Below, in pieces: positions 6,586 through 22,365 of a stretch of DNA of 32,197 nucleotides. Positions within the stretch are counted from its first letter, which is position 1. Every line of letters starts with the position of its first letter. Source of the DNA: Aquipuribacter hungaricus (GTDB lineage: Bacteria; Actinomycetota; Actinomycetes; Actinomycetales; JBBAYJ01); the NCBI RefSeq assembly GCF_037860755.1, contig NZ_JBBEOI010000019.1, forward strand, positions 1 through 32,197, read 5' to 3'. A model generated the notes under the pieces. It did no database searches and had not been told where the DNA came from. It was given only the letters and a program-made list of their open reading frames with translations. Both the position numbers and the translations under genes were made by a program.

Positions 6586-7092
6586 CTAGAAGAGGCCGAC
6601 GGGCGGCTCGTCGCACGGCAGCGGCTTGAGCCGTGCGTCGTGGCCCTTCTCGGGGCTGCACCCCTTGAACGGGCCGTCGGGGTCCAAGAGCGTGGCCATG
6701 TGCGGATCGGCGTGGTCCCGCAGCCACACGCTGATGCCCAGCGCGGGTTCCAGGCGCAGGTGCTCCCACGCCCGCCACAACGCGTCCAGACGGACGATGG
6801 CCTCCGCGTGGCGCCACCACTGCGGGCACCACGTCCGGTGCCGGCCGTCCAGGCTGCGCCGGTACGTCGGCGCCAGGAGCTCCCGGACGAAGACCTCCAC
6901 GGTGGGGAAGTACAGCTGCGGGGCATCCTCCTCCGGCGACGCCGTGTCGGCGGGCTCCGGGCCGGCGCCGGTGTCCTCAGCCCACTCGTCGGTGGCCCCC
7001 CATCCCCCCTGCCCGACGCCCGCCGGGTCGCCGATCGGGTCGTCGGTCACCGTCGCGACCGGGGAGCTGCCCAGGTCCGCGCCGGCAGTCAT
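6586..7092 (-). CDS. DUF4913 family protein, end of conjugation operon
   Basis: A 168-residue protein. The ATG at 7092 overlaps the stop of the coupling-protein gene as ATGA, so translation is probably coupled. An acidic Ala/Gly-rich N-terminal tail (~60 residues) precedes a compact domain with the DUF4913 hallmarks: WCPQWWRHAEAIVRLDALW, then AWEHLRLEP, WLRDHADPHMATLLDPDGPF and a C-terminal GLF. In actinobacterial conjugative elements this family commonly sits beside TraG-like coupling proteins, consistent with an accessory role in DNA transfer; the biochemical function is unknown. It is the last gene of the minus-strand operon. Confidence 0.88.
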   Translation of the reverse strand: MTAGADLGSSPVATVTDDPIGDPAGVGQGGWGATDEWAEDTGAGPEPADTASPEEDAPQLYFPTVEVFVRELLAPTYRRSLDGRHRTWCPQWWRHAEAIVRLDALWRAWEHLRLEPALGISVWLRDHADPHMATLLDPDGPFKGCSPEKGHDARLKPLPCDEPPVGLF

Positions 7093-8930
7093 GACGAGCT
7101 CCCGCCGGGCCGGGTGACGGCCGACGGAGAAGGGGTGACCGGGACCGCGACCGTGACGGTCCGGGCGGGCCTGGCAGCCGCCGGCGGAGGACGCCGTGCG
7201 GCAGGGGCGTGCGCAGCGATGGACGCCCGCACCTCGGCGGCCGCGGGGCCGTCCATCCACGGCACCGTGCGGACGAGGGTCGGCGGGATACCGGAGGCGA
7301 GCAGGAGCGCCCTCCCGCGCGGCAGCGCACCGAGCTCGGAGACCTCGAGGACGCGCTCACGCCGGGTGGAGCGGCTGGTGGACCGGCCACCCCTGCCGTG
7401 GGAGGTGGACAGCTGGCGCAGGTCGTAGTCCCCGACCAGCTGGGACAGCTCGGAGAGGAACTCCACCTCCGAGACACCGCCGCCGTAGACCTTCACGTTC
7501 GCCGCCGACCACAGCTTCCGCATCCCGTCGCGGCCCCACACCTCCACCCCCTGCGACCAGGACTGCAGGATCGTCATCATCACGATCCCCCGGGAGCCGT
7601 AGTGGGAGTACAGGTTCGGCAGCTCCCGCCACCGGCACACGTTCGCCGCCTCGTCCAGCACCGCGACCAGGGGAACCGGGAGCCGCCCGCCGGGCGAGGA
7701 CGTGGCCAGCTGCTCCGCGGCCTCGGTCACCGCCACCGTCAGCGCCGTCACCAAGGGGCTTGCGGACCCGCGGCCCTCCTTGGACAAGGAGTACAGGGTG
7801 CCGCCGTCGCGGACGAACGCCGCCGGCGAGAACTCCGTCCGAGCACCCCCTCCCTCGGACGACGGGGTCACCCAGCCCATCGCCCGCCGGTTGGTCATGA
7901 ACGAGGCCAGCTGCTGCGCCGTGCCGTACACGCCGCCGCGCTGCTTGTCGGGGGCGTGCACGACCCCGGCCACCGCCGCCGCCGGCAGGACGTAGCCCGC
8001 GATCCGGAGCAGGTCGACCGGCTCGTCCTCGGTGGGGTCGGTCAGCCACAGGTACACCTGCGTCAGCGGGCGGTCGGCGACCGCCGCCGCGAGCAGCAGC
8101 CCCGCCAGGAGCTCACGGGCGGCGGAGTCGAAGAACGCGTCCGTCCGGGCGCCCGGGTCCCTGGACGCGGAGGAGATGAGGTCTGCCAGCACGGACGCCC
8201 TCACCTCGTCGGTGACGTAGGTCAGCGGGTTCCACCACCACGCGCCGGGACCGGTGGTGGGCTCCTCGACGATCCCCTGCGGGTCGAACACCCACACCGG
8301 GCCCGCCGCCGCGCGGGGGCCGCGGGTGGCGTCGACGATGTCCCGCTTGTTCGACGTCGCCAGCACCGCACCCGGTGCGGCGAGGACGGCAGGGATCGCG
8401 CGGGCGGTGGTCTTCCCCGTGCGGGGACCCCAGATGTCCACCGCGTTGTCCTCCCACGAGGAGAACAGCGGCTGCCCCGCCAAGGACACCCCGATGGGCA
8501 GACCCGGGCTCGCCCCCTTCGCCGTGGCCACGCCCAGGCGGGCAGCCGTCGCGGCCGCACCGTGCCGGGACACCGGCCGCAGGACGCTCCCCCGGGCCAG
8601 GTGCGGTGCGGCCCGGTCCACCCCCGCCCGACGCCGTCGACCCCTGCCCCGAAGGACAGCCACCAGCACCAGCGTCCCCAACACTAGGATTCCTAGGCCC
8701 ACCGCGGCAAAGGTCGCGGACGGCGTCCACGGCACCGTGCCGCCCAGGACCCCGAACAGCAGCGAGAACGGGTTGCGGGGCAGGACCACCCCGGTCCCGT
8801 CGAGCCGGTGACCCAGGTGCGCGCCACCGGCCACGACACCGGTCACGGTCACCGCCGCGGTGACCCCCACCCACACCAGCACGGTGTCGGTCGAGCTGGC
8901 CGACGCCGGCCGTCGCGTCGACGCGCTCAC
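7089..8930 (-). CDS. TraG/VirD4-type type IV coupling protein
   Basis: Membrane-anchored ATPase that would recruit a DNA substrate to the secretion channel. The product has 613 residues. Two N-terminal transmembrane segments (about 15-38 and 75-95) are followed by an Arg-rich cytoplasmic stretch. Walker A GPRTGKTT lies near residue 168 and Walker B VAVLDEAANV near 420-430. Motifs ELPNLYSHYGSRGIVMMTILQS and AANVKVYGGG are typical of the TraG/TraD family. GTG at 8930 is used, 42 bases after the ATPase gene's stop; the ribosome site is weak. The C-terminal ~40 residues are Pro/Ala-rich and probably disordered. Two copies of the CTAG 9-mer (8682-8699) lie inside the DNA coding for the second transmembrane segment. 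Confidence 0.92.
   Translation of the reverse strand: MSASTRRPASASSTDTVLVWVGVTAAVTVTGVVAGGAHLGHRLDGTGVVLPRNPFSLLFGVLGGTVPWTPSATFAAVGLGILVLGTLVLVAVLRGRGRRRRAGVDRAAPHLARGSVLRPVSRHGAAATAARLGVATAKGASPGLPIGVSLAGQPLFSSWEDNAVDIWGPRTGKTTARAIPAVLAAPGAVLATSNKRDIVDATRGPRAAAGPVWVFDPQGIVEEPTTGPGAWWWNPLTYVTDEVRASVLADLISSASRDPGARTDAFFDSAARELLAGLLLAAAVADRPLTQVYLWLTDPTEDEPVDLLRIAGYVLPAAAVAGVVHAPDKQRGGVYGTAQQLASFMTNRRAMGWVTPSSEGGGARTEFSPAAFVRDGGTLYSLSKEGRGSASPLVTALTVAVTEAAEQLATSSPGGRLPVPLVAVLDEAANVCRWRELPNLYSHYGSRGIVMMTILQSWSQGVEVWGRDGMRKLWSAANVKVYGGGVSEVEFLSELSQLVGDYDLRQLSTSHGRGGRSTSRSTRRERVLEVSELGALPRGRALLLASGIPPTLVRTVPWMDGPAAAEVRASIAAHAPAARRPPPAAARPARTVTVAVPVTPSPSAVTRPGGSSS
8682..8699. repeat. Two-unit outlier of the CTAG 9-bp repeat
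   Basis: CACTAGGAT followed directly by TCCTAGGCC: two CTAG cores exactly 9 bp apart, the same unit and phase as the array ahead of parA at 20694-20866. It is inside the coupling-protein reading frame. It could be a secondary binding site for the partition protein or a coincidence. Confidence 0.5.
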
Positions 8931-18201: not shown

Positions 18202-18207
18202 TAAGTG

Positions 18208-18270
18208 TTCGGGACCAGTTGCAGCTGGTCCGAAGTTGTCTCCGCCGAGGAGACCCCTCTCGAGAAGGGG
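18208..18270 (+). promoter_or_regulatory. Two leader hairpins before replication gene
   Basis: Hairpin 1: TTCGG(G)ACCAG paired with CTGGTCCGAA (18208-18234). Hairpin 2: CCCC paired with GGGG around a TCTCGAGA core (18254-18270), ending 12 bases before the ATG at 18283. They follow a terminator and could act as an attenuator, a countertranscript target or part of an origin. Confidence 0.5.
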
Positions 18271-18282
18271 CTTTGTGCTGCC

Positions 18283-20313
18283 ATGAGGGTAGCCGATGAC
18301 GATCCTGTTGCAAGAACTACTGGCGAACCCGACCCGGCGTGTCCGGTCGACGCCTGGACGCTCACCCACGCGCTGAGCCCGCGGCCGCTGGTGCGTGTCT
18401 CAACCGTCGACGCCACCGGGACCACCCTCAACGCCTACACCGGCCACGCCCCGGTGGACGGCCCTGCACCCGAGCTGCCCTGGGCGGTCTACCTCGCCGG
18501 CCGTGACCAACGGTTCCGCCTGCTCGCGCTCGACCTCGACGCCAAGACCGACCCCTCCCCCGCCCACCACGACGCCGACGTCCTCAGCACCCTCCTCGAC
18601 ACCGAGGGCATCGCCCACGTGGTGTGCCGCTCCGGACCCTCCGACGGGCGCCACCTCTGGCTCGCCCTCGACGGGTCCGTCGACGCCGCCACCGCCGCCA
18701 CCCTCGCCCGCCTCGCCCGGCACCTGTGCCCCAGCCTCGACCTCGCCCCCCTCACCAACCCCGCCACCGGGTGCGTCCGACCCCCCGGCGCCCCCCACCG
18801 CGACGGCGGCACCTCCACCGTCCTGCAGGGCGACCTCGCGACGCTCACCCGGCCCACCACCACCCCCGAGCAGGTCCGCAGCCTCATCACCCGGCTCTCC
18901 CAGCTCGTCGACGACAACGTCACCGAGCCCACGACCGCCACCGCACCGACTACACCGCTGCCCGTGGACCAGCACGGCCACCTGTACCTGCCGGGCGCCC
19001 GCCGCGCCCTGCCGCCGGTCAGCGAGACCGCCCTGCACGACCAGGCCGCGGCCGCCGGCCCCGAGGGCGCCGTCACCGCCGACGCCTCGGCGGTGCTGTG
19101 GACCGTCCTAGTCGGGGCCGCCGCCGCCCGCTGGCGTCACCACGACATCGCCGCCCTGCTGCCCACCGCACCCGGCCTGGAGCACCTGCGCAGCGCCCGC
19201 GACCGCGGCCACCGACGTCCCCGCCCCGCGGACGGACCCTCCTCCCCCACCGCCGTCCTGCGACGGCAGTGGCGCAAGGCCGTGCAGCACGTGGCCACCA
19301 CCGCCCGCCGCACCGGCACCGACCCCACCTTCGACACCCGCGCCGACCAACTCACCGCCCACGTCCGCGCCGTCCAGGCCCGCGCCGACGCCACACCCGG
19401 CCGGTGGACCCGTGGCGCCGGCCCCGGCGACCGCCGCGTCCTCGACGTGCTGTGCACCCTCGCCCTGCACGCCCTCAGCGCCGACCTCGAGGCCGACACC
19501 CGCCGCGTCGCCCTCCTCGCCGGCGTCGGCCGCGAGACCGCCCGCGTCGCCCTGCAGCGCCTGACCCGCGACGGCTGGATCGCCCTCACCCTCCCCGCCG
19601 CCGGCCCCCACGGCGCCCACTGGAGCGTCACCCCGCCCACCGCGGCAGCCATCCACAGAGACACCACCAGTGATCGGTCACAAGCGGACCCGCGCCCCGC
19701 AGGGGCAGGGGCCGCCGAACGTCTGGTCCTGCTCTCCGCTCTCCTGCGTCGCACCCAAGATGCTGCGCACGATTTGTTCACCAGCGGGTCCGGGCTCGGC
19801 CACCACCTGGGGAACGTCTACGCCAGGACAAGCCACGACCCCACCACCGTCATCGACCTCGCTCGAGCCACTGCCTCCGCGCCCCACCAGCTCCGAGCCG
19901 ATCTGCAGAAACTCGAGGCAGTTGGGCTCGTCGAGCACAGAGGCGGCAGATGGCGTCGCGGCCGCCACGACGTCCGGGATGTCCTCGCCCAGGCCGTCGG
20001 CGTGCTCGGCCGGCTCTCGGACCGGGCACACCGGTACCGCGTCGAACGGATCGCCTGGGCGTGGTGGCAGGCCGAGCACGCCTGGATGACCGCGCCCCGG
20101 CGCACCCATCCCAGCCGCCGCGCCGGCGCCGGGCAGCTGGACCTCCTCCCCCAGCTCGTCCGCACCGGCCCCAGCAGCCCCCTCGGCGCCCACCCGCGCC
20201 GACCCGACGGACGCGCCGACTACCGCGCGAGCCGAGCCGCCGTCGCCGCCAGCCTCGCCGCCGAGCATTCCCCCGCCATCGACCACGGCACGCCGCGCCG
20301 AGCGGCCGCCTGA
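18283..20313 (+). CDS. AEP primase-like replication protein with winged helices
   Basis: A 676-residue putative plasmid replication initiator. The N-terminal archaeo-eukaryotic primase (Prim-Pol) domain has motif I LALDLDAK (Asp84, Asp86), motif II SGPSDGRHLWL (His124) and the conserved RPPGAPHRDGG (Arg166 to Arg173), preceded by SLDLAPLTNPATGCV. The middle is Arg/Ala-rich. A winged-helix segment lies near 400-440 (TRRVALLAGVGRETARVALQRL) and a second near 525-565 (PHQLRADLQKLEAVGLVEHRGG). No helicase Walker motifs are seen. ATG 18283 is chosen because upstream codons fall in the hairpin leader. Together with the downstream par genes it forms a replicon-like block. The Asp/His triad appears intact. 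Confidence 0.85.
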   Translation: MRVADDDPVARTTGEPDPACPVDAWTLTHALSPRPLVRVSTVDATGTTLNAYTGHAPVDGPAPELPWAVYLAGRDQRFRLLALDLDAKTDPSPAHHDADVLSTLLDTEGIAHVVCRSGPSDGRHLWLALDGSVDAATAATLARLARHLCPSLDLAPLTNPATGCVRPPGAPHRDGGTSTVLQGDLATLTRPTTTPEQVRSLITRLSQLVDDNVTEPTTATAPTTPLPVDQHGHLYLPGARRALPPVSETALHDQAAAAGPEGAVTADASAVLWTVLVGAAAARWRHHDIAALLPTAPGLEHLRSARDRGHRRPRPADGPSSPTAVLRRQWRKAVQHVATTARRTGTDPTFDTRADQLTAHVRAVQARADATPGRWTRGAGPGDRRVLDVLCTLALHALSADLEADTRRVALLAGVGRETARVALQRLTRDGWIALTLPAAGPHGAHWSVTPPTAAAIHRDTTSDRSQADPRPAGAGAAERLVLLSALLRRTQDAAHDLFTSGSGLGHHLGNVYARTSHDPTTVIDLARATASAPHQLRADLQKLEAVGLVEHRGGRWRRGRHDVRDVLAQAVGVLGRLSDRAHRYRVERIAWAWWQAEHAWMTAPRRTHPSRRAGAGQLDLLPQLVRTGPSSPLGAHPRRPDGRADYRASRAAVAASLAAEHSPAIDHGTPRRAAA

Positions 20314-20693
20314 CACGCGCACACCATCGTCACCACGACCAGTACTGCGGACGCCCCCCGCTGCGGCCGACGGGGCCGGGTCTCGCCGTCGCCCGGTCGA
20401 CCGGAGGTCACCACGGCCAGGGGCGGCATCGCTGCGCTCTGCGGAGGCACCCGAGGTGATCCTTCCGGCCAAGAACGCGCCGGAAGCATCATCGGGGCCC
20501 GCCTCCTCCGGCCACCCCTGCCCGCGGTCAGGCTGCGCCTCGCCCGAACGACGGTGAGACCCCCAGCACCCCCCCGAGCGTCACCACCACGCCGCGCCCC
20601 CTCCAGGGCAGACACCGGCGCCCCGGAGGGCGCCGGGACAACCGAAGAACGCAGGGGCTCCGCCCCCACACCCCCGGCCCTCACTCCGATGAG
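20314..20693. other. Intergenic region between replication gene and CTAG array
   Basis: About 380 bases with no supported gene; open frames on both strands look like shadows. It contains two hairpins near its right end and then passes into the CTAG repeat array. An origin of replication could lie here, but nothing in the sequence proves it. Confidence 0.5.
20615..20666 (+). terminator. Paired hairpins downstream of replication gene
   Basis: CCGGCGCCC/GGGCGCCGG (20615-20636) has a CGGA loop and a perfect 9-bp stem. GGGGC/GCCCC (20654-20666) is weaker. Together they probably end the replication-gene transcript and insulate the par operon. Confidence 0.6.
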
Positions 20694-20866
20694 CCCTAGC
20701 AACACTAGGAAACCTATCTGCTAGGAACCCTAGTGTTTCCAGTCCTAGTGATCCTAGGGATGGTAGAAAACCTAGGAGTGCTAGATGCCGGTCACGCTCG
20801 GCGCGCCTCCGCGGCGCCGCCTCCTACGAATGCTAGGAATCCTTGGATATGTAGGAACCCTAGGAA
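20694..20866 (+). repeat. 9-bp CTAG-centred direct-repeat array, candidate centromere
   Basis: Imperfect 9-mers, consensus nCCTAGGAA, run in phase up to the parA start. Perfect CTAG cores begin at 20696, 20705, 20721, 20730, 20745, 20754, 20772, 20781, 20833 and 20860. Degenerate copies at 20714, 20763, 20824, 20842 and 20851 keep the 9-bp register. There are four clusters; the last five units (20822-20866) are perfectly phased, and about 34 bases separate clusters three and four. The block is much richer in A/T than its surroundings. Contiguous short direct repeats upstream of a ParA gene are the hallmark of centromeres bound by RHH partition proteins, and also act as the operator for the par genes. 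Confidence 0.8.
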
Positions 20867-20878
20867 TTCGAGGCTGAC

Positions 20879-21826
20879 ATGGATCGCACCACGCTGCGCC
20901 GGGTGGTCGCCGTCATCAACGGCAAGGGTGGTGCCGGCAAGACGTCGATCACCGCCAACGTCGCCGGCCTCGTCGCCAACTCCGGCTTCCGGGTGCTCGT
21001 CGTCGACATGGACCCGCAGGGCAACCTCGCCGAGGACTTCGGGTACACCCAGGGCGAGGCGGACGACCAGGGGCAGTCCCTCGCCGCTGCGCTGGCGTTC
21101 GGGCAGCCCGCGACGCCGCGGCGTGACGTCCGCCCGCGCCTGGACGTGTTCGTCGGCGGGTACCACCTCGATGCTGCGGCGGCCGCGCTGGCCGCGGCCA
21201 AGGACCAGGTCGGGGCCCGGCTCGCGCTGGCCCGGGTGCTGGAGCCGCTGGGGGAGGACTACGACCTCGTCCTCATCGACTGCCCGCCCGGGATCGAGGC
21301 GCTGCAGAACGCCGCGGCGGCCGCGGCCCGCTGGGCGCTGGTCCCCGCACGCTCCGACGCCAGCTCCCGCAAGGGGATGCTGGACGTGGCTCGGCGCCTG
21401 GACGCCGTCGTCGACCTCAACCCCGACCTGGACCTGCTCGGTGTCGTCCTGTTCGGCACCGGCACCGGCGCCCACCGCATCAAGCAGGAGGCGCGCGAGC
21501 GGATCGTGGAGGCGCTCGGCGCCGAGGACGTCGTCCTCACCACGACCATCCGGCACTCCGAGGCCACCGCCCACGCCGCGCGGGAACGAGGCCAGCTCGT
21601 GCACGAGCTCGAGGAAGAAGCCCGCAAGGGCCCGTCCTGGTGGCAGATCCGCCGCGGCGAGGCCACCGGCGCCGGGGGAGCACCCCGCACCGCGGGCGGG
21701 GTCGCCGAGGACTACCACGCCCTCGCCGAGGAGATCGTCGCCCGGATCACCGCCGCCGAGGCTGCCCAGGCAGAGCACCTCGAGCAGCTGGACCAGGTCG
21801 AGCAGGCGGGAGCTGTCGGCGCATGA
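20879..21826 (+). CDS. parA: ParA-type partition ATPase
   Basis: A 315-residue Walker-type ATPase that would move plasmid copies over the nucleoid. The deviant Walker A is KGGAGKTS (residues 16-23, signature Lys16 and catalytic Lys21). VVDMDPQGN and LVLIDCPPG follow. The Walker A is almost at the N-terminus, so the helix-turn-helix of type Ia ParA proteins is missing and this is type Ib-like, but longer than usual, with an extra Ala/Glu-rich C-terminal helix after residue ~245. ATG 20879 has GAGG at spacing five, directly after the repeat array. The stop overlaps the next start as ATGA. Autoregulation through the array by the downstream RHH protein is likely but inferred. Confidence 0.93.
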   Translation: MDRTTLRRVVAVINGKGGAGKTSITANVAGLVANSGFRVLVVDMDPQGNLAEDFGYTQGEADDQGQSLAAALAFGQPATPRRDVRPRLDVFVGGYHLDAAAAALAAAKDQVGARLALARVLEPLGEDYDLVLIDCPPGIEALQNAAAAAARWALVPARSDASSRKGMLDVARRLDAVVDLNPDLDLLGVVLFGTGTGAHRIKQEARERIVEALGAEDVVLTTTIRHSEATAHAARERGQLVHELEEEARKGPSWWQIRRGEATGAGGAPRTAGGVAEDYHALAEEIVARITAAEAAQAEHLEQLDQVEQAGAVGA

Positions 21827-22365
21827 GCGAGCAGCAGGCACCTGACCGCACCGTCCGCGGCTTCGGCGCCGCCCGCGCCGGCGGGGGAGTGCACCCCGAC
21901 GCCCGCCGGCTCATCGCCAGGAACCGGGTTACTCCGCCCGCACCCCGACCTGCGGCCCCCACGCCCCCGGCACCGACCTCCGTCCCTCCCGGCGCGGCTG
22001 CAGACCTGCCCGCAGACGTGACGACGTCGGCCTCGCCTGGCCAGGTTCCGCCAGCAGTCGCTGCGCCTGCGGCCGCACCCGTGCCCGCAGTAGTCGAGTC
22101 GTCAGCGCCGACTCCGCAGGTCGGGGCCGCCAGGAACGGTGCAGCGAAAGCTCAGGTCAACGTCATGGTCCCCACGGATCTCCGTGCCCGGATCAGGTCC
22201 GCCTATCGCGCCACCTCCGTGCAGGAGGGTCACCGGTCGTTCAGCGACTTCGTCGCCGGTCTGCTCGAGGCCGAGGCGACCCGTCTCGAGGGCCGCTACA
22301 ACGACGGTCGACGCTTCGCCGGGGGACAGGAACCGCTAACCCCCGGCCGGCCCTTGGACGCCTGA
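21823..22365 (+). CDS. RHH-type centromere-binding partition protein (ParB-like role)
   Basis: A 180-residue protein translationally coupled to parA (ATGA overlap). Residues 1-110 form a basic then Pro/Ala/Thr-rich, probably disordered tail. Residues ~111-165 (QVNVMVPTDLRARIRSAY, then HRSFSDFVAGLLEAEATRLEGRYNDG) have the strand-helix-helix pattern of RHH DNA-binding proteins. In type Ib partition systems such a protein binds the direct repeats with its RHH domain and stimulates ParA with its flexible N-terminal tail, which often contributes an Arg; RTVRGFGAARAGG near the N-terminus is a candidate. It is unlike the classical ParB, with no ParB/Srx domain. Confidence 0.82.
   Translation: MSEQQAPDRTVRGFGAARAGGGVHPDARRLIARNRVTPPAPRPAAPTPPAPTSVPPGAAADLPADVTTSASPGQVPPAVAAPAAAPVPAVVESSAPTPQVGAARNGAAKAQVNVMVPTDLRARIRSAYRATSVQEGHRSFSDFVAGLLEAEATRLEGRYNDGRRFAGGQEPLTPGRPLDA

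Follow-up and report, generated by a model that had tools for sequence, protein, structure and literature searches.

Directly upstream of a parA gene in Aquipuribacter hungaricus lies a crowded array of short CTAG-centred repeats. What does this array do, and does it represent a kind of centromere that has not been seen before? The window, meaning the whole stretch of DNA that was analysed, is 32,197 nucleotides in length. A first-pass annotation made from its letters alone proposed that the array is a candidate new centromere class. Our analysis makes it very probable that the array serves a pCXC100-type (type Ib) plasmid partition locus as its centromere (parS), with a probable second role as operator. 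The locus belongs to a known actinobacterial kind, and it does not define a new class of centromere.

Structure and statistics of the array

The array consists of 16 units of 9 bp and occupies positions 20694-20866, about 0.17 kb directly 5' of parA (Table 1). This is where the first-pass annotation had placed it, with a count of about 15. CTAG is exact in 10 units and has one mismatch in the other six, and every unit keeps at least three of the four letters (C in 14/16, T in 15/16, A in 15/16 and G in 14/16). The consensus is TCCTAGGAA, which contains the perfect 8-bp palindrome TCCTAGGA. An exact 9-bp register had been claimed for the entire array. It holds within sub-blocks of 3 + 3 + 5 and then 5 units, including the degenerate units at 20824-20860, but steps of other lengths break it: 7 bp between 20714 and 20721, 6 bp between 20739 and 20745, and 43 bp between 20781 and 20824. 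The phases of the exact CTAGs modulo 9 are 7,7 / 5,5 / 2,2,2,2 / 0,0.

Table 1. Features of the partition locus and of a related site in the window
Feature	Position	Strand	Remarks
Isolated two-unit site CACTAGGATTCCTAGGCC	8682..8699	.	Inside TraG/TraD-like ORF 7092-8930
Array cores	20696, 20705, 20714, 20721, 20730, 20739, 20745, 20754, 20763, 20772, 20781, 20824, 20833, 20842, 20851, 20860
Distal block of putative centromere (parS)	20694..20787	+	11 units, sub-blocks 3 + 3 + 5
GC-rich gap between blocks	20788..20820	.	43-bp step, core 20781 to core 20824
Proximal block, putative centromere/operator	20821..20866	+	5 units, exact 9-bp register
parA, 315 aa	20879..21826	+	Walker-type partition ATPase, AAA_31 at residues 8-185
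parB, 180 aa, putative centromere-binding protein	21823..22365	+	4-bp overlap with parA stop (ATGA)
N-terminal ParB motif (RTVRGFG...VHPDARRLIARNR)	21847..21927	+	Residues 9-35
ParB C-terminal RHH domain	22141..22359	+	Residues 107-179; PDB 3no7, PF18064 CB_ParB_C

CTAG is scarce outside the array, as had been noted, although it occurs there about once per 1.5 kb and not once per 2 kb: the 173-bp array holds 10 copies, and the remaining 32 kb hold 21. Pairs of CTAGs at a distance of exactly 9 bp occur four times, whereas resampling of the array with a first-order Markov model gave 0.03 on average and at most 3 in 20,000 trials. The genome-wide count that had been suggested finds CTAGN5CTAG at six places in the 4.3-Mb genome, four of them within the array. 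In the region 5' of parA, lag 9 is the top lag (z 4.0; 0 of 200 shuffles). Lag 8 reaches a z of 2.7 there, which sets the array apart from 8-bp repeats of the RedRock type, and lag 7 is not raised, which sets it apart from heptads of the pSM19035 omega type.

Codon structure in this GC-rich genome can by itself yield similarity at lag 9, and the repeats might therefore be a product of chance or composition. Lag 9 was the top lag in 42 of 144 random stretches of the window, together with lags 6 and 12. At arrays these two lags are low (median 0.9 versus 5.2), and only for this reason is the lag-9 test specific. Because lag-9 autocorrelation is unspecific in coding DNA, it was judged alongside lags 6 and 12 and in relation to the ParB family. 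The array lies in non-coding DNA, its 55% GC (compared with 73% for the window) makes it relatively rich in AT, it stands far above the null expectation, and CTAG arrays likewise precede parA at three other loci (L102, L089 and L096). A chance origin is scarcely conceivable.

No comparable second array is present anywhere in the window. The best match outside the array, by a clear margin, is the isolated site CACTAGGATTCCTAGGCC, which possibly is a secondary ParB site or possibly is due to chance. The GC-rich gap between the blocks could hold the parA promoter; a promoter scan of 20314-20950 found no sigma-70-like promoter. Searches of the window for Rfam families and tRNAs gave no matches.

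The parAB genes and the kind of locus

The ParA protein does not carry an N-terminal DNA-binding extension, and its AAA_31 domain begins at residue 8. Among its relatives of known structure are ParA, Soj and Orf delta'. The ATPase is of the ParA type and not an actin-like ParM, so the locus falls outside type II (ParMRC).

The C-terminus of ParB matches the Pfam family CB_ParB_C (PF18064) with an E value of 2.1e-9 and 37.8 bits (cut-off 27). It matches PDB entry 3no7 with an E value of 1.9e-18 and with identity at 36 of 71 aligned residues. That entry bears the title "putative plasmid related protein", and we take it to be the ParB of the Leifsonia plasmid pCXC100. Residues 107-179 are homologous to 3no7, which predicts a ribbon-helix-helix (RHH) fold. 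The AlphaFold model of ParB is poor (mean pLDDT 56), with helices at 118-135 and 140-159 only and with the RHH strand absent. Profile and structure matches thus bear out the proposal that a type Ib-like ParA and an RHH-family ParB adjoin a centromere-like array. No relatives of this ParB were found in the INPHARED and IMG/VR phage collections.

Because ParB matches both CB_ParB_C and 3no7, the locus is assigned to the pCXC100 type (type Ib), and the array is its probable centromere and operator. The features of that type found here are a CB_ParB_C ParB, a ParA lacking an N-terminal DNA-binding domain and encoded directly before parB, and direct repeats 5' of parA. The centromere of pCXC100 comprises only direct repeats, located 5' of the par operon, in a described type Ib system (PMC5016525). 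As in the window, pCXC100 (from Leifsonia xyli subsp. cynodontis) encodes ParA and then a small PF18064 ParB, with direct repeats 5' of the par operon. The unit length of its repeats is not stated in the open literature found; presumably these repeats too are about 9 bp and are bound cooperatively by ParB. The CTAG core sets the array in the window apart from pCXC100.

Other known partition systems are less similar. The omega/delta system of pSM19035 (type Ib) likewise combines an RHH protein on short repeats with a ParA-type motor, and Orf delta' is among the ParA matches, but its repeats are 7-bp heptads and its ParB is of another family. In parH of TP228, tetramers alternate with 4-bp spacers, which gives an 8-bp step. 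This type Ib system, ParF-ParG-parH, has degenerate tetramer boxes, AT-rich spacers and an RHH protein with a flexible N-terminal tail (PMC7308502). ParG differs from the ParB in the window in that the two have no sequence match. The RedRock mycobacteriophage carries two parS loci, each with eight copies of an 8-bp motif as direct repeats (PMC7157519). It shares with the window an actinobacterial ParA/ParB and arrays of short direct repeats, but its period is 8 bp and not 9 bp. The earlier argument for novelty, a contrast with 7-bp heptads, was too narrow on its own in light of these 8-bp repeats.

Two other genes in the window are of interest. A large ORF at 18205-20313 on the forward strand weakly matches an archaeo-eukaryotic primase domain (E 1.5e-4, below the curated cut-off) and winged-helix domains, and might encode a plasmid replication protein. 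On the reverse strand, positions 7092-8930 encode a TraG/TraD-type conjugation coupling protein, which suggests a conjugative element. Given these two genes, the window is probably DNA of a plasmid or conjugative element.

Repeat period and ParB family at other parA loci

The survey of repeat periods covered 48 parA-related loci (denoted here by L and a number) with enough upstream sequence, and the best lag from 6 to 14 was scored against shuffles. Membership of the ParB family found in the window was set by an iterated profile. Most of the loci come from the same order and one distant locus from the phylum level, whereas the genus and family supplied none outside this genome. Lag 9 is on top 5' of parA in 32 of the 34 loci with the window's ParB family and in 0 of the 14 loci with other ParBs (Fisher p 2.5e-10); 31 of these 34 loci belong to one supported clade in the ParA tree, so the counts are not independent events. 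After removal of near-identical upstream regions, the figures are 29/31 and 0/14. The 9-bp unit is therefore the rule in this CB_ParB_C-type family and is not an oddity of one plasmid, and a unit that is usual in its family, together with the Pfam and 3no7 matches, speaks against the claim of a new class. Among the loci with other ParBs, lag 8 is on top in six, two of which are paralogues from this genome, and the rest have 11, 12, 14 or no clear period.

The two exceptions within the family, L097 and L127, are plasmid loci near pCXC100 in their ParB, and their ParAs fall outside the ParA clade of the window. Of four further near plasmid relatives of the pCXC100 ParB, clear lag 9 is seen only in L130 and L131, and none is clear in L129 and L132. 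L130 and L131 have short 9-bp clusters of 3-4 units with CTAA-like cores, in contrast to the one long array of the window. At five plasmid loci (L091, L095, L099, L120 and L128), a parB of the family follows parA but is absent from the gene table, which is incomplete; the original records may list these genes.

The upstream regions of homologous parA loci were compared, and the repeats are present there; the first-pass annotation had named their absence as grounds for abandoning its proposal. The nearest locus is L102, from another taxonomic family, whose ParA is 76% identical. This locus has 13 CTAGs, again laid out as two blocks with a 41-bp step between them. CTAG cores at 9-bp steps also occur in Paraoerskovia (L089) and Miniimonas (L096), and the window, L102, L089, L096 and L014 form one ParA clade. 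The core differs by lineage, for example AATGACAG in Arthrobacter and relatives, while the 9-bp step is kept. By eye, the ParB strand before the first helix reads Q-[VLI]-[NS] in the CTAG group and KQ-[VI]-T-F-Y in the AATGACAG group. The strand appears to differ in accord with the core.

These comparisons bear on two further readings. The possible replication protein upstream raises the question of whether a plasmid Rep, and not ParB, binds the repeats as replication iterons. The length of an iteron usually exceeds 9 bp, the period goes with the ParB family (32/34 versus 0/14), and the arrays remain at parA irrespective of the upstream gene, so this reading is very improbable. The upstream genes that vary while the arrays stay with parAB include HTH, ImmA/IrrE, rep-side, NYN and SDR genes. 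Rep iterons and a chance repeat were both rejected on account of the ParB-family link, the null statistics and the conservation at homologous loci.

Alternatively, the array might be only an operator, through which ParB or ParA represses parAB, with the centromere located elsewhere. The proximal block does have an operator-like position, ending just 5' of the parA ATG with its last core 19 bp away, and type Ib centromere-binding proteins double as repressors (PMC5016525). However, 16 units spread across about 170 bp, 11 of them in a distal block on the far side of a GC-rich gap, exceed the needs of an operator. Also, L102 keeps the two-block layout, and the window offers no other comparable array as a centromere. 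In such systems a single array can fill both roles, and a function as operator alone is unlikely. A combined centromere and probable operator is the preferred reading.

ParB modularity, a proposed mechanism and implications

Many ParBs of the survey share an N-terminal motif that ends in L-I-R-x-N-R, mostly after R-x-[LI]-x-G-L-x-P-R. The motif occurs in 21 of 34 ParBs of the 9-bp class (0.48 expected from shuffling) and in 6/6 ParBs of a second family (five with 8-bp periods, plus L011; 0.05 expected from shuffling), although the pattern was written after some of these sequences had been seen. The C-terminal domains of the two groups are not recognisably related, and the 8-bp-class ParBs have no significant Pfam match. 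The motif probably contacts ParA. The simplest reading is that different DNA-binding domains have been attached to a common ParA-contacting tail.

Two paralogous parAB loci (L002 and L003) lie on other contigs of this genome. They show ParA identity of about 60%, their ParBs belong to an unrelated family, and their period is 8 bp, for which the signal in L002 is weak. One genome therefore has partition loci of two centromere periods. These loci resemble RedRock in period only. L115 has an 11-bp-period array with GCTAG-like cores 5' of parA, and in L111 the parA gene is preceded by a 14-bp tandem repeat (CGGACTCCCGAGGT) that is nearly perfect; each has yet another ParB.

We lean slightly towards a view of the actinobacterial type Ib loci as a modular series. 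A common ParA and ParB N-terminal motif would be combined with varied DNA-binding domains, and the centromere unit would depend on the domain (9 bp with CB_ParB_C, 8 bp with the second family, perhaps 11 bp, and others). Specificity would then shift by both the core and the repeat length, and two of these kinds would be present in this genome. In the limited open literature searched, no description was found of a rule by which the period depends on the ParB family and a related ParA and a shared ParB tail are retained.

RHH proteins of type Ib systems coat repeats 5' of the par operon, repress it, and stimulate the motor via a flexible N-terminal domain (PMC5016525, PMC7308502). By analogy, ParB dimers formed by the C-terminal RHH domains would bind adjacent 9-bp units and might coat the array cooperatively. 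The two-fold symmetry of the unit core TCCTAGGA is what is expected for a symmetric ParB dimer. If one DNA turn takes 10.5 bp, a step of 9 bp would place each dimer about 51 degrees behind the one before it, and seven units (63 bp) would equal six turns, so a left-handed protein spiral might be expected. The flexible N-terminus, which carries the two motif segments, would contact the nucleoid-bound ParA ATPase, and ParA on the nucleoid would then separate the plasmid copies. The 5-unit proximal block may let ParB repress parAB.

The array shows that a plasmid centromere can be predicted from sequence in a clean, testable way. According to the survey, a rule may hold in which the repeat period is predictable from the ParB family and the core perhaps from the ParB beta-strand. 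The ParBs of such actinobacterial plasmids are mostly annotated as "hypothetical protein". If the rule is confirmed, the centromere sites and incompatibility groups of many of these plasmids would be readable from sequence. Also, the natural pairs of loci with 8-bp and 9-bp units and similar ParAs provide material on what determines the spacing of RHH dimers along DNA.
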